IMG/VR virus record: IMGVR_UViG_3300027836_000018
Coordinates: 1 to 42,596 of that record
DNA: 42,596 nucleotides
Source of the DNA: a virus
Direction: 5' to 3' (one strand)
Positions 13,217 to 42,221 of this stretch are shown in pieces. Both the position numbers and the translations under genes were made by a program. The notes beneath the pieces were generated by a model. That model ran no database searches. It was given only the letters and a program-made list of their open reading frames with translations, and was not told the origin of the DNA. The first letter of the stretch is position 1. Each line of letters begins with the position of its first letter.

Positions 13217-13684
13217 TTAAAATAAGTTATATTCAAATATAAATCTATACCCAGATGGGTTATTTGGTTGTGCAAAATATTGACCACCTATGCTGAACTT
13301 ATTAAACTCTAATAGTAAAGTCCCATATAGATAAGGATTTACTAAGCTGGTATTTACAGTTTGTACTCCTAAGTATGCGTGGAGTTCAGGTTTTTTAAAC
13401 CAGCCAATAGCTTTATCTTGTACGGTAATTATTTCATTTTTCTTAGCGAGGATACTATCTTTAATTTTTATAATATCTGTAAGCTCGCTATTTTGATTTT
13501 GTAAATTTTTAATTTCTTCTTCTTTAATCACTAATTTACTTTTACATATATCTCCTTTGACAAGATCTTTTACTATTTCTCTAGCTATATTTTCATTCAA
13601 TACTATCTTTTTGACAGTATCTGTCTGAGAAAAACTTTTGAAGCTTACTAAAAGCAATAGTATCAATAACTTTAATTGTGTCAT
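13217..13684 (-). CDS. Exported outer-membrane-type protein, likely o-spanin counterpart, 155 aa
   Basis: The product has a clear signal peptide (MTQLKLLILLLLVSFKSFSQ, cleavage expected near SFS-Q), a periplasmic coiled coil (LVIKEEEIKNLQNQNSELTD, LAKKNEIITVQDKAIG) and a C-terminal aromatic, strand-like region (LHAYLGVQTVNTSLVNPYLY, then YRFIFEYNLF) ending in Phe as outer-membrane proteins do. The start lies inside the i-spanin-like gene in another frame, with 92 bp overlapping, the nested layout typical of Rz/Rz1 pairs. It lacks a lipobox Cys, so it is not a classical Rz1 lipoprotein; a short beta domain may anchor it instead. Function in outer-membrane disruption is inferred from position and topology. 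Confidence 0.65.
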   Translation of the reverse strand: MTQLKLLILLLLVSFKSFSQTDTVKKIVLNENIAREIVKDLVKGDICKSKLVIKEEEIKNLQNQNSELTDIIKIKDSILAKKNEIITVQDKAIGWFKKPELHAYLGVQTVNTSLVNPYLYGTLLLEFNKFSIGGQYFAQPNNPSGYRFIFEYNLF

Positions 13685-13943
13685 GTTCTAATTGTATTAA
13701 TATTTTTTCTTTTTGGACAATTACTTTATTATTAGATTTTAAACTATCAAGCTTGTTCCAATGTAATTCTTCACGTTTTTCTAGTAATTCAATGTCTGCT
13801 TCAAGACGTTTCTTTTCTTTTTTTAATTCATTGTTTTGTCCTATTCCATATATAAGAAATAGAATGAATAATAAAATTAGAATAGTTCCTAACCATTGCT
13901 GTTTTATAAAATTACTTATATGGCACATATGATGTTTTACCAT
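13593..13943 (-). CDS. Inner-membrane spanin (Rz-like), 116 aa
   Basis: The topology is that of an i-spanin: short N-terminal cytoplasmic segment, one transmembrane helix (residues about 18-35, LGTILILLFILFLIYGIG), then a long periplasmic coiled coil (KKEKKRLEADIELLEKREEL, then KLDSLKSNNKVIVQKEKILI). The ATG at 13943 overlaps the end of the endolysin by 32 bp; the internal Met at residue 6 would be an alternative start. The gene for an exported coiled-coil protein starts within its 3' part. Known spanins bridge inner and outer membranes and fuse them at the last step of lysis; I assign the role from topology, overlap and gene order, not from sequence identity. Confidence 0.75.
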   Translation of the reverse strand: MVKHHMCHISNFIKQQWLGTILILLFILFLIYGIGQNNELKKEKKRLEADIELLEKREELHWNKLDSLKSNNKVIVQKEKILIQLEHDTIKVIDTIAFSKLQKFFSDRYCQKDSIE

Positions 13944-14373
13944 TAGTTTTTATTGCTCTTAATATTTGTTTTCTTTGTTTGCCTGTTGATTCATAAGATA
14001 CATGTACCCAGTCTGGGTTTTTATCTGTGCCAAATTCCCAAATCATTTGATCAAATACTAAATTATTTTTAATATAATCAAATACTTGTTTATTTGTAAT
14101 TGATGTACCATCCATATCAATATCAATTGCTTCACCAGAACAATGTTGTGAAGTTAGTGATCCACCTATTTTTTTATTTAAGGCTGCACTTCTATACCCA
14201 CTTGATATATGAATAGGGGTGTTAAAATGTTCTCTAATAGGTTCAAATACTTTTTCAGCTAACTTTTTAAAGTTCTCTAAATGTTCTGCAGTTGGTTCAT
14301 TGCTGATACCATTTCTTTTTGCTGATTCACTTCTTGTTACTTCAGCTAATGATAAGTGTTTACTCAGTTGCAT
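13912..14373 (-). CDS. Endolysin, M15-family D-Ala-D-Ala carboxypeptidase-like peptidase, 153 aa
   Basis: The zinc-peptidase motifs are in order: ISSGYRSAALNKKIGG, then SQHCSGEAIDIDMDG (first His and the Asp ligand), and PDWVHVSYES (last His ligand). This is the Peptidase_M15_3 / VanY-like fold used by many phages as a peptidoglycan-cleaving endolysin. The frame is open further upstream, but the N-terminus MQLSKHLSLAEVTRSESAKR starting at 14373 matches family starts, and overlaps the upstream membrane gene by 14 bp. There is no signal peptide, so access to the wall depends on the holin-type proteins encoded just upstream. It is flanked by the spanin-like pair on the other side, giving a complete lysis cassette. 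Confidence 0.88.
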   Translation of the reverse strand: MQLSKHLSLAEVTRSESAKRNGISNEPTAEHLENFKKLAEKVFEPIREHFNTPIHISSGYRSAALNKKIGGSLTSQHCSGEAIDIDMDGTSITNKQVFDYIKNNLVFDQMIWEFGTDKNPDWVHVSYESTGKQRKQILRAIKTNGKTSYVPYK

Positions 14374-14620
14374 TTTCTTCTTGTTTTTTGTTATTATTAG
14401 TGTTAAAAATTTTACCTGCTGTAGCAATACCAAAGCATATCATTGTAAGAGTCATAAACCCATCAAAGATAAACTCTTTAATTATTAATTCTTCACCTAA
14501 TATTCCAGTTATTACATCTACTAATAGTGTAAAAACCATTGCAAAAAAAGAAACAACACCAACAAATGCTTTTTCATCTATTGAATTATTATCACTTATT
14601 AATTCTCTCCAAAATTTCAT
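14360..14620 (-). CDS. Small membrane protein of the lysis cassette (holin-like), 86 aa
   Basis: This 86-residue protein opens MKFWRELISDNNSIDEKAFV and has two predicted transmembrane helices (about residues 19-42, VGVVSFFAMVFTLLVDVITG, and 48-70, FIFDGFMTLTMICFGIATAG), with an Asn/Lys/Glu-rich cytoplasmic tail (NNNKKQEENATE). Small two-helix proteins of the 'KFWRELISDNN..S.K..VG' type stand next to endolysins in many Bacteroidota phages. Holin, antiholin or pinholin are possible. It is one of three membrane proteins in a row: a likely holin (143 aa), the PAS-domain protein (369 aa), and this. How labour is divided cannot be read from sequence. Confidence 0.7.
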   Translation of the reverse strand: MKFWRELISDNNSIDEKAFVGVVSFFAMVFTLLVDVITGILGEELIIKEFIFDGFMTLTMICFGIATAGKIFNTNNNKKQEENATE

Positions 14621-14633
14621 ACTTGTTTAATTT

Positions 14634-15743
14634 TTATTTATTACCACCTTCTTGTGTAGCATACTTAATACCCATAATTGTACCAACTATTGAGAATGCG
14701 TTAGTTAATAATACACTAAACATATTTGACCATGTTGAACCAATTATTTGGGTGTCTTGATCTGTTACAATGGCGGCCCAGTATAGTACAGTTGTAACAA
14801 TACCAACACCTACTATAACAGCTAACGCACACTTAACAATTATTTTTATTAATTCATTCTGACTCTTTTTTAATACTACATCTAAATCATTTAAAGCAGC
14901 GTCCTTTTCTAATTCTATTGCGTGTTTAAGCTTTTGTGAGTTATCTAATTCAACTGTTAAGTTCTTTGTAAGCTCATCTATTTTCTTCTTATTGTTTACA
15001 GACTCAGTAATATCAGTTGCAATCTTAACTACCTCAGTAATATTGCCTTTACTGTCAAGTACAGGATTGTATGATGCTTGTAAATAAACAATAGAACCGT
15101 CTACTTTTCTCCTTTCAAATATTCCATCAAAGAACTTACCCTTTCTTAAACTTTCCCAAAACTTAGTATAGTCATCAGACTTTGAGTACTCATAGCTTAC
15201 AAAAATACTATGATGCTTTCCAATGAGTTTACTTTTTTCATTGGTTTTATACCCCATAGTTTCTAAGAATATAGAATTTACATCTAGTATAAATCCATCA
15301 GTGTTAAAACTAATAATAGCAGTACTTCGGTTAATTGCGTCTACTTGTTTCTTACTATTGACAATTGTTGTAATGTCAGTAGCAATCTTCATTACTTTAG
15401 TAATCTTATTGTTCTCATCAAAAATAGGATTATAAGTTGCTTGGAGATTAATAAGACTTCCGTCCTTTCTTCTTCTCTCAAACTCTCCTTGGTAGTACTT
15501 ACCACTTCTTAATATATCCCAAAATTTTTCATACTCAAGTGATCTTGAATAATCTTCACATACAAAAATGCTATGGTGCTTACCAAGAAGTTCTTCATGG
15601 TTACCTAAACCATAACCCATTGCTTTCAAGAAAATATCATTAACTCCTAATATAGTACCATTAAGGTCAAAGTAAATAATAGCATTACTTCTATTAATTG
15701 CTTCTAATCTACTTAATAACTCCTCTTTAGATAAATTTTTCAT
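14634..15743 (-). CDS. Tandem PAS-domain sensor with coiled coil and holin-like transmembrane C-terminus, 369 aa
   Basis: Two similar PAS domains occupy residues about 13-126 and 136-247. Each has AINRSxAII.F, a GKHHSIFV loop (His56-57 and His177-178), KFW..LR.GK, FERR..DGS and a closing KIATDIT. They resemble the tandem PAS units of BdlA/Aer-type chemotaxis receptors, which bind haem or flavin in characterised members. Residues 248-300 form a coiled coil. The end has two membrane segments (about 301-327 and 338-360, the second including LLTNAFSIVGTIMGIKYA), a pattern of small phage holin-like proteins. No kinase, methyl-accepting or cyclase domain is present. The gene overlaps the holin-like gene by 1 bp and precedes the small membrane protein and endolysin. 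I infer a sensor that couples a redox, oxygen or metabolic signal to lysis; ligand and mechanism are unknown. Confidence 0.85.
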   Translation of the reverse strand: MKNLSKEELLSRLEAINRSNAIIYFDLNGTILGVNDIFLKAMGYGLGNHEELLGKHHSIFVCEDYSRSLEYEKFWDILRSGKYYQGEFERRRKDGSLINLQATYNPIFDENNKITKVMKIATDITTIVNSKKQVDAINRSTAIISFNTDGFILDVNSIFLETMGYKTNEKSKLIGKHHSIFVSYEYSKSDDYTKFWESLRKGKFFDGIFERRKVDGSIVYLQASYNPVLDSKGNITEVVKIATDITESVNNKKKIDELTKNLTVELDNSQKLKHAIELEKDAALNDLDVVLKKSQNELIKIIVKCALAVIVGVGIVTTVLYWAAIVTDQDTQIIGSTWSNMFSVLLTNAFSIVGTIMGIKYATQEGGNK

Positions 15744-16174
15744 TAGTTCTTAATATCGCCAATATCCTCTTTAATTTCTTTAGTTCTTTTTAAAACTTCT
15801 TTTAGTAAACTAAATACATCTACATTAAAAGCGTCTTCAAAATTTTCTTTTATGCTAACAGATTCTATAAATATTAAAACTATAGTAACAACTTTTGTAA
15901 AAAAGAAAGGTATTGAAAACCATATTTTAAAAAACTCCCCCAATAAAAATGTATCAACCATGAATATTAATAATACTGCAGATTGGTATAATACAAATTT
16001 AGAAACTATATTGCTTAACTTCCTAGAAGTTATCTTTTGTTTTGTTTTTATTGATCTTGCTATTCCAAAGATTGTGTCTAATGCAATAGCAGTACCAACT
16101 GAAATTAATAAACCTTGTATTGGGGCAAAAAATAATAAAAGTGTTGTTAGGAAATATACTAAATATGCCTTCAT
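15743..16174 (-). CDS. Holin (phage holin family 4-like), 143 aa
   Basis: Three or four hydrophobic segments are visible (YLVYFLTTLLLFFAPIQGLL; LISVGTAIALDTIFGIARSI; FVLYQSAVLLIFMVDTFLLG; FFFTKVVTIVLIFIESVSIK), followed by a charged cytoplasmic tail (LKEVLKRTKEIKEDIGDIKN). The 'ALDTIFGIARSIKTKQKITSRKL' loop, an Asp in a membrane helix followed by a basic stretch with Ser-Arg/Lys, is the hallmark of the phage_holin_4/TcdE group. It is the first gene after the terminator at 16208-16230 and heads the lysis cassette. In known members the holin forms lesions in the inner membrane, which sets lysis time. The TAA at its end shares one base with the ATG of the PAS gene. Confidence 0.75.
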   Translation of the reverse strand: MKAYLVYFLTTLLLFFAPIQGLLISVGTAIALDTIFGIARSIKTKQKITSRKLSNIVSKFVLYQSAVLLIFMVDTFLLGEFFKIWFSIPFFFTKVVTIVLIFIESVSIKENFEDAFNVDVFSLLKEVLKRTKEIKEDIGDIKN

Positions 16175-40518: not shown

Positions 40519-40687
40519 AGAAAAAATAATTAAAGAGGAATACCAAAAACTATTAGAAGCAGGAGATTTAGAAAATCTTTTTCCTAGTATGAAATGTAAT
40601 TGGGAAGATGATAAACAAAGATTTATCAAACAGTGGAGAATAAATCAAGAAATATTAAAAGAGTCTTATGTTAATAAAATTAAATAA
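40508..40687 (+). CDS. Small acidic helical protein, 59 aa
   Basis: A frame from ATG 40508-40510 to TAA 40685-40687 encodes 59 residues: MKDEEKIIKEEYQKLLEAGD, LENLFPSMKCNWEDDKQRFI, KQWRINQEILKESYVNKIK. It overlaps the upstream gene by 11 bp and the groEL start by 20 bp, filling a gap that would otherwise be 149 bp long in a very compact operon. Composition is amphipathic helical. I find no family match. Tight overlaps on both sides and normal codon use support a real gene. Confidence 0.7.
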   Translation: MKDEEKIIKEEYQKLLEAGDLENLFPSMKCNWEDDKQRFIKQWRINQEILKESYVNKIK

Positions 40688-42221
40688 CGAAGCTAAACAA
40701 GCTTTAAAAGAAGGAATTGAAGTTGTTGCCAGTGCAGTTAAGACTACAATGGGGGCAGAAGGGAAGACAGTTATCATCAGGAATAAAATGGGTTTTAGGA
40801 ACCACATTACTAAAGATGGTGTTACTGTAGCAGAAAGCATTATGCAAGATGACGACTTCCGAGAAATGGGGGGTCAATTATTAAAAGAAGCAGCAAGAAG
40901 GACTGTAGATTTAGTTGGTGATGGTACCACTACAACATCAGTACTAACAGAATTTTTAGTAAGAAATGCATTAGAGGTTTTAGAGTTTGCACCGAGCGTA
41001 TCTCACGTAGAGTTTATTGAGGGTATGAATATTGCTTTTAAAGAAGTTCAAAAAAACTTACACAAGCTTACTAAAAAAGTAGGAGAAAAAGAAATGTTTC
41101 AAATAGCAACTATCTCTGCAAATAACGATCCAGTAATTGGTAAAGTTGTAGCAGACACTTTTATTAAAGTTGGTAACGAAGGAACTATTGATATTCAAGA
41201 AGGTGTTTCAAGGGATACCACAACAGAGTTTATTGAAGGTATGTCAATCGAAAGAGGATGGTCAATTCCACACTTTATCACAGATCAATCTACAATGACA
41301 GTTACTCTAGAGAACGCCAAGATTTTAATTTACGATGGCCCGATTAAATCTATCAACGATATCGCACCAGTTGTAAGAGAATGCCAAACAAACGGAAACT
41401 CTTTGTTTATTGTAGCAGAAGATGTAGACGAAGGTGTTATGGCAACTCTAGCTAAGAGTAAAATGCAAGGCACACTAAATGTATCTGTAACACTTAGCCC
41501 AGATTTTGGGTTAAATAGAACAAACATCTTAGAGGATCTAGCAGCATTCACATCAGGTGAAGTTTACTCTACAAAAACAAGTACTAAGATTAAGATGGGT
41601 CTTGCTAAAAAGATTTTATCAGACAAGAATAGAACGGTATTTATCTGTGAGGGTATTTCAGAAGAAGTAGAAAAAAGAGCTGAGGATATCAAAGGCCAAA
41701 TAGAAAGCGCAGCAGATCAATTTGACAAAGCAAAATTATCAAAGCGATTGTCTAACCTTAAGAATACAGTTGCTATTATATACGTAGGTGGTGTAACTGA
41801 ATCAGAACTAAAAGAAAAGAAAGACCGTATTGAAGACGCAGTACATGCTGTTAGATCATCAGTTGATGGTGGCTTTGTTTCTGGAGGTGGATCTACTTAC
41901 AAACATATTGCTGAGAGAAGAATGAAACAAGGAGAAAAACTTAGTGGTGCTACATCATTAGGTTATTACAATGTAGTCTCTGCCATCCACATGCCATTCT
42001 TTCAAATATTAAGTAATGCCTCTATGGATAGTGTTGCATTTAGTTCTTCTGCAAGTAAATTTGGATTTGGTGTAAACGTAAAGACAAGAAAAGTAGAAAA
42101 CTTATTGAAGACTGGTATTATCGACTCTACAAAAGTTCTAGAAGTAGCCCTAGAAAATGCGATCTCAGTAGCTGCATTAGTAATAAAAACGGATTGTTTA
42201 ATTTCAGATAACGGATTATAA
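40668..42221 (+). CDS. groEL: GroEL-type chaperonin (HSP60), 517 aa
   Basis: The equatorial ATP site is complete: TKDGVTVAES (residues 48-57, Asp50), LVGDGTTTTSVL (82-93, Asp85), and EKKDRIEDAVHAVRSSVDGG followed by FVSGGGS (383-409, Asp390), equal to E. coli Asp52, Asp87 and Asp398. The intermediate and apical parts are recognisable (ATISANNDPVIGKVVADTFI, GMSIERGWSIPHFITDQ, SPDFGLNRTNILEDLAAFTS). It is about 30 residues shorter than E. coli GroEL and lacks the C-terminal Gly-Gly-Met tail. It probably folds phage proteins such as the capsid protein or the long fibres. It is followed at once (TAATG overlap) by a GroES-like gene. A full phage GroEL is uncommon, and this one looks catalytically intact. 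Confidence 0.95.
   Translation: MLIKLNNEAKQALKEGIEVVASAVKTTMGAEGKTVIIRNKMGFRNHITKDGVTVAESIMQDDDFREMGGQLLKEAARRTVDLVGDGTTTTSVLTEFLVRNALEVLEFAPSVSHVEFIEGMNIAFKEVQKNLHKLTKKVGEKEMFQIATISANNDPVIGKVVADTFIKVGNEGTIDIQEGVSRDTTTEFIEGMSIERGWSIPHFITDQSTMTVTLENAKILIYDGPIKSINDIAPVVRECQTNGNSLFIVAEDVDEGVMATLAKSKMQGTLNVSVTLSPDFGLNRTNILEDLAAFTSGEVYSTKTSTKIKMGLAKKILSDKNRTVFICEGISEEVEKRAEDIKGQIESAADQFDKAKLSKRLSNLKNTVAIIYVGGVTESELKEKKDRIEDAVHAVRSSVDGGFVSGGGSTYKHIAERRMKQGEKLSGATSLGYYNVVSAIHMPFFQILSNASMDSVAFSSSASKFGFGVNVKTRKVENLLKTGIIDSTKVLEVALENAISVAALVIKTDCLISDNGL

Follow-up and report, generated by a model that had tools for sequence, protein, structure and literature searches.

The usual picture of lysis in virulent phages is that a clock within the holin sets its timing and that, of outside influences, only a collapse of energy or superinfection can alter it. 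What a predicted sensor joined to a membrane tail might be doing among phage lysis genes is the question raised by an open reading frame on the minus strand of the window, the whole 42,596-nucleotide stretch of viral DNA analyzed here. The frame starts with ATG and encodes 369 amino acids, and the plus strand across it is full of stops (Table 1). The first-pass annotation, made from the sequence alone, had described two PAS domains with paired GKHHSIFV motifs, a coiled coil followed by two membrane helices, and no kinase, cyclase or methyl-accepting output domain, and this description held in all its parts. The Pfam profiles PAS_3 (PF08447, E=9e-27) and PAS_9 (PF13426, E=3e-23) match far above the cut-off, the motif occupies residues 54-61 and 175-182, and AlphaFold2 predicts two PAS folds (pLDDT mostly 77-89), placing the protein in the PAS superfamily by both profile and fold. 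The model continues with one long helix (residues 246-327), which spans the coiled coil and TM1, followed by another at 331-364, the membrane part being modeled at a pLDDT of ~60-68, and profile searches of the protein returned no kinase, cyclase or MCP domain. Because homologous loci number in the hundreds and dN/dS is ~0.1, this architecture is not a product of chance.

Table 1. Coordinates of the focal gene, its parts and the neighboring lysis genes in the window.
Feature	Position	Strand	Basis
Tandem-PAS / coiled coil / two-TM tail protein, 369 aa (focal gene)	14634..15743	-	ORF, Pfam, AlphaFold2
PAS1, residues 13-126	15366..15707	-	Pfam PAS_3 33-120 and predicted fold
PAS2, residues 136-247	15003..15338	-	Pfam PAS_9 143-247 and predicted fold
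Coiled coil linker, residues 248-297; modeled as running on into TM1	14853..15002	-	AlphaFold2
TM1, residues 299-327; one conserved face (100-degree periodicity)	14763..14849	-	Conservation analysis
Loop and TM2 block, residues 331-363, TQIIGSTWSNMFSVLLTNAFSIVGTIMGIKYAT; near-invariant in tandem-PAS forms	14655..14753	-	Conservation
Holin, Phage_holin_4_1 (PF05105), E=1e-11; TAATG overlap with the PAS gene	15743..16174	-	Pfam
tm2, 86-aa two-helix membrane protein	14360..14620	-	Neighbor analysis
Endolysin, peptidase M15_3, ATG at 14373	13912..14373	-	Pfam E=5e-21; phrog_894 E=4e-41
Candidate Rz-like spanin	13593..13943	-	Weak, phrog_1026 E=0.002
Signal-peptide protein recurrent in such cassettes (cluster 15)	13217..13684	-	Gene clustering

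The genomic setting was likewise as first described: the holin gene lies upstream and shares one base with the PAS gene, and a small membrane protein (tm2) and the M15 endolysin follow. The same cassette (holin, PAS-tail protein, tm2, M15 endolysin, Rz-like protein) is repeated almost gene for gene at another locus, L027, at which the holin is only 47% identical to that of the window and the PAS protein 85%. The window record, a virus contig, is related to Cellulophaga phages phi17:2 and phi4:1, with which it shares a virion structural protein at 47% identity. Since the relatives are Cellulophaga and Flavobacterium phages, we infer that the hosts are probably Flavobacteriia or other Bacteroidota. 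The window also encodes a phage GroEL-like chaperonin (phrog_5725) at 40668-42221.

A scan of IMG/VR with the focal protein returned 269 relatives, the best 80 of which are 82-96% identical over the full length, and a scan with the tail alone identified at least 551 contigs encoding it. The loci retrieved in the first scans contain 263 PAS ORFs, of which 260 end in the tail and three are truncated or frameshifted. The tail was found neither in a phage collection of 50,697 records nor in plasmid records, and its form was absent from 84,980 bacterial and archaeal genomes, where matches were limited to chemoreceptors and sensor kinases that have the PAS part in common with it; it is therefore not a common prophage gene. 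Candidate relatives in isolated phages were set aside, being chemoreceptor-like sequences on unannotated contigs; the match in a Shewanella phage is weak (E=0.09) and lies in an unannotated row of genes. Cellulophaga phages phi19:1 and phi18:3 gave PAS-like fold matches that were likewise set aside, phi19:1 having no sequence relation in the part searched.

Genes on these IMG/VR contigs, which are often fragments, were called by a simple script and clustered by BLAST, and 129 distinct loci were compared, 95 of them with three genes visible on each side. An endolysin lies within three genes in 84 of the 95, and an endolysin, holin or tm2 in 90, compared with only 4 such genes among 837 located five or more positions away; the p value of about 1e-42 overstates independence because the loci are mutually related, yet the effect is plain. 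Lysis genes are distant in the remaining 5 loci. For the single-PAS form, an endolysin or tm2 was present within five genes at every locus (22/22). The endolysin types exchanged around the tail gene include GH19, M15, GH24 and PG-binding proteins, and gene order varies too. The commonest neighbor of the PAS-tail gene is tm2 (97 of 129 loci), which falls within three genes in 73 of the 95 loci and outside that distance in 22. Since a Phage_holin_4_1 holin was present in only 8 of 44 large contigs, many large contigs lack a recognized holin of this family. The survey for such fusions beside endolysins that the first-pass annotation had suggested thus found that the gene is not unique to the window, and the linkage supports the annotation's proposal that a sensory protein whose output lies in the membrane belongs to the lysis cassette. 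Genomic linkage by itself does not demonstrate action on lysis; it does indicate that many uncultured aquatic phages carry a predicted sensor-bearing membrane protein among their lysis genes.

The most conserved part of the protein is its end. In a set of 90 different full-length proteins, the most divergent of them 62% identical, nearly every position of residues 331-363 is at least 99% conserved. Synonymous codons in this block vary as they do elsewhere, so that selection acts on the protein and a hidden DNA or RNA signal is ruled out as the cause of the invariance; an artefact of the seed pattern is also ruled out, since loci found by PAS patterns alone have the same tail. Conservation of TM1 follows one helical face (100-degree periodicity, p<5e-5), and TM2 is conserved on all faces, which suggests that TM2 may be surrounded by protein, as in an oligomer. 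TM2 also bears a weak polar stripe (p=0.016). The same loop and TM2 block occurs in the single-PAS and two-component forms described below, and it varies in places in more distant relatives, near-invariance being a property of the tandem-PAS forms. We regard the tail as a shared, strongly conserved, putative output module.

Indeed, the tail occurs behind two PAS domains, behind one, or behind an unrelated short N-terminal domain, forms that the window sequence alone could not have revealed to the first-pass annotation. A single-PAS query led to proteins of ~190-227 amino acids with the same coiled coil and tail, in which a short domain marked by a conserved EGN motif takes the place of the PAS part. 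At all 27 loci of this type, the tail gene comes after two others, the first encoding a larger protein and the second one of 143-154 aa; ten operons that were read out encode, in order, a histidine kinase, a CheY-like receiver and the tail protein, with receiver and HATPase_c domains confirmed by Pfam. Kinase loci found through their PAS domains alone have regulator and tail downstream in 18/18 cases, and a search based on the regulator placed a kinase upstream in 101 of 102 and a tail protein downstream in all 98 testable cases. These adjacent genes have the marks of a two-component system: the phospho-Asp is intact in 102/102 regulators and the H-box in 100/101 kinases. The regulator is a bare receiver without a DNA-binding domain. 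The arrangement is found in larger phages, with an endolysin, tm2 or holin nearby in 26 of 31 loci with full context; many lie near tm2 or a holin and not near an endolysin, and in some operons kinase, regulator, tail, tm2, endolysin and holin form an uninterrupted run. Neither the regulator nor the two-component tail protein matched any isolated phage, and the kinase-linked tail protein matched no solved structure. At two loci (L447 and L448), ~1.4 kb separates the PAS kinase from the genes for regulator and tail, and a third (L438) has two kinases in series.

The window protein aligns with these systems in separate pieces in all 18 two-component contigs tested. Residues ~246-367 align with the tail protein in every one and the PAS part with the kinase in most, the contigs of L431, L500, L556 and L560 giving the tail match only. 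The best pairings are 49% identity with a kinase over residues 1-274 and 62% with a tail protein over residues 249-364. A receiver domain was detected in none of 38 PAS-tail contigs compared with 5 of 11 two-component contigs (Fisher p=2e-4), a test whose sensitivity is limited because only those 5 of 11 scored; the window's own 42.6-kb record, possibly incomplete, has no PF00072 or PF02518 match to a receiver or kinase. Most simply, the window protein would short-circuit the phosphorelay, its sensor being fused directly to the output. Taking linkage, conservation and these alignments together, we read the focal protein as probably the one-component form of a phage signaling system that acts through a new two-helix membrane module of the lysis cassette.

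One type of cassette allowed presence and absence of the gene to be compared directly. The isolate Flavobacterium phage vB_FspM_immuto has tm2, a GH19 endolysin and a holin arranged as in PAS-bearing contigs, with ~75-88% identity to their counterparts there; the PAS-tail gene is absent, with 10 bp between tm2 and the endolysin in its place. Sequence was sufficient in 73 such cassettes: the slot holds a PAS-tail gene in 11 and lacks one in 62 (some contigs being near-duplicates), 9 of the 62 carrying other inserts. Since most cassettes of this closest type lack it, the gene is an optional insert and not a core component, and lysis does not need it. Absence from related lysis cassettes had been named at the outset as a point that would count against a lysis-linked sensor; it holds for most cassettes of this close type, whereas other cassettes carry the gene with the endolysin linkage given above. 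At one locus (L364), the slot is occupied by the single-PAS version with the same tail. Another (L304:4655-5356) has a 4HB_MCP_1 chemoreceptor sensor, a four-helix bundle (E=1e-7) without an output domain, within a three-gene insert. This insert, which is apparently a separate sensory one, was accompanied by tm2 or endolysin genes at 21/21 loci examined. The 4HB_MCP_1 sensor was also seen in 33 loci (L454-L486), flanked by genes for proteins of 106-131 aa and 146-151 aa. The slot after tm2 in L302, L366 and L375 encodes an 86-89-aa one-TM protein and a 134-142-aa signal-peptide coiled-coil protein.

Comparison with known families indicates which parts of this arrangement have precedents. The tail resembles holins in having two TM helices and an endolysin close by, and the first-pass annotation had read it as a holin-type pattern; that reading was an interpretation, and the proposed comparison of the C-terminal tail with holin families gave it no support, as neither the tail nor the whole protein matched a holin family in Pfam, PHROGs or NCBIfam; nor is the tail similar to any known antiholin. 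Compared with tm2 and with another two-helix cassette protein, the tail gave hhalign probabilities of 4-5%, the tm2 comparison (4%) being a weak test with shallow profiles (Neff 1.3). A family of unknown function, phrog_1544, matched the coiled coil and tail of all forms weakly (E 1e-5 to 0.09) and was set aside because the same search also matches unrelated control genomes. A role in anti-phage defense was rejected, there being no PADLOC match. Holins and two-helix lysis regulators such as mycobacteriophage LysF1a (PMC13056207) share with the focal protein two TM helices, a predicted N-in/C-in topology and a location in the lysis cassette, but have no sequence relation to it, and the focal protein differs in the ~250-aa sensor in front and in its near-invariant TM2.

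The closest solved structures to the PAS pair are redox or aerotaxis sensors (MmoS, NifL and Aer). The FAD-PAS redox sensors MmoS and NifL are its best matches in sequence and fold (3ewk, 2gj3), with MmoS 3ewk the best Foldseek match (E=4e-16); their conserved Trp is present at the aligned sites of the focal protein (W75, W196), in which FAD is a candidate ligand, whereas the output differs. Among the nearest cellular relatives of the PAS part are chemoreceptors of the BdlA/McpS/Aer type, which have the same PAS subtype, the GKHHS motif and N-terminal PAS domains on a helical transmission segment. The PAS domains of BdlA have been grouped with FAD binders, as a prediction (PMC8694187). Unlike these receptors, the focal protein has no MCP signaling domain by profile search, ends in a two-helix membrane tail and is encoded in a phage lysis cassette. 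The large-phage form has a kinase and receiver with intact phospho-sites in common with bacterial two-component systems, but is phage-encoded, has a receiver-only regulator and encodes, as the product of its constant third gene, a membrane protein close to lysis genes. In concept, VqmA of phage VP882 comes nearest, being a PAS sensor carried by a phage that links lytic induction to a chemical signal (PMC12802170); VqmA, however, is a DNA-binding transcription factor acting on the lysogeny switch, whereas the output here would be a membrane module beside the endolysin. In open-access full texts (a set outside which subscription papers and preprints fall), we found no PAS-holin fusion, no lysis-tied phage two-component system and no description of the tail, in keeping with the earlier statement that no such fusion had been described.

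These observations are consistent with a mechanism in which the PAS pair, in the cytoplasm, would read a signal of host state through a FAD or haem redox cofactor or a small ligand. The change would travel along the continuous coiled coil into TM1 and TM2, and the tail would oligomerize in the inner membrane, where it would fix the time of lysis by forming a gated holin-like lesion or else by restraining or releasing the other membrane proteins of the cassette. In the two-component form, the phosphorylated regulator would bind the short N-terminal domain of the tail protein to bring about the same step. All of the support is comparative, and no isolated phage among the records searched carries an identifiable tail, kinase-linked tail protein or regulator. 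The two-helix module, driven by fused PAS domains or by a kinase and regulator, may define a new class of phage signaling through which virulent phages infecting aquatic Bacteroidota fit the timing of lysis to the physiology of the host cell; on this proposition we are evenly divided.

Were the tail itself a holin-type pore, it would be a lesion former gated by the PAS domains or by phosphorelay, its opening set by ligand or redox state. The predicted N-in/C-in two-helix design, the conservation of TM2 on all faces with its polar stripe and the rarity of Phage_holin_4_1 holins on large contigs favor such a pore; yet a separate holin is encoded in the window and elsewhere, TM2 is far more conserved than is usual for holins and matches none of their families, and some cassettes, including that of an isolated phage, lack the focal protein, leaving the pore somewhat unlikely in our judgment. 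It is possible, though we hold this only tentatively, that the tail is instead a holin regulator, antiholin-like or lysis-inhibition-like, which binds, holds or releases the holin or tm2 as the sensor directs. Two-helix holin-like regulatory proteins are known from mycobacteriophages (PMC13056207), tm2 is the most constant neighbor, and in one cassette type the PAS gene fits exactly between tm2 and the endolysin. Because the tail hardly varies across cassettes that differ widely in holin family and in the sequence of tm2, self-assembly or a conserved host partner is favored over such a partner within the cassette, and tm2 is missing from the vicinity in 22 of the 95 loci.

Two further explanations place the protein outside lysis timing by host state. 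A host-takeover module acting on host signaling, energetics or chemotaxis, and traveling with the lysis genes as a moron, would fit the chemoreceptors and sensor kinases that are its nearest cellular relatives, the output-less 4HB_MCP sensor in the same slot of other phages, and the loci found elsewhere in the genome. We consider it unlikely, as linkage to exchanged endolysin types is very strong, the MCP and CheW/CheA-binding parts are absent, and no bacterial or archaeal genome searched had the tail form. A sensor of superinfection or an exclusion protein, comparable to the T4 lysis-inhibition pathway, would also be a membrane protein of the lysis region, and sensing a second infection would presumably alter lysis timing as well; however, the PAS domains have no signal peptide ahead of them and are therefore presumably cytoplasmic, not periplasmic, and exclusion proteins usually diversify fast, which the tail does not, making this explanation very improbable.

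The preferred reading, a one-component signaling protein of the lysis cassette, bears on more than the window. Hundreds of phages join a predicted sensory input to a lysis-cassette membrane module, in one- and two-component forms, which suggests that such viruses sense host state before or during lysis. If the module acts as proposed, these phages would pick the time of lysis by host state, with consequences for burst size and for virus-driven mortality in lakes and seas. The natural plus/minus pair of cassettes, including that of the Flavobacterium phage isolate that lacks the gene, makes the idea testable. In Cellulophaga phages phi17:2 and phi4:1, the region corresponding to the window cassette has an amidase endolysin and a cupin gene and lacks the PAS protein; the cupin-domain protein of phi17:2 (gp061, L277), possibly a small-molecule sensor, is encoded next to the endolysin at the position of the window cassette.
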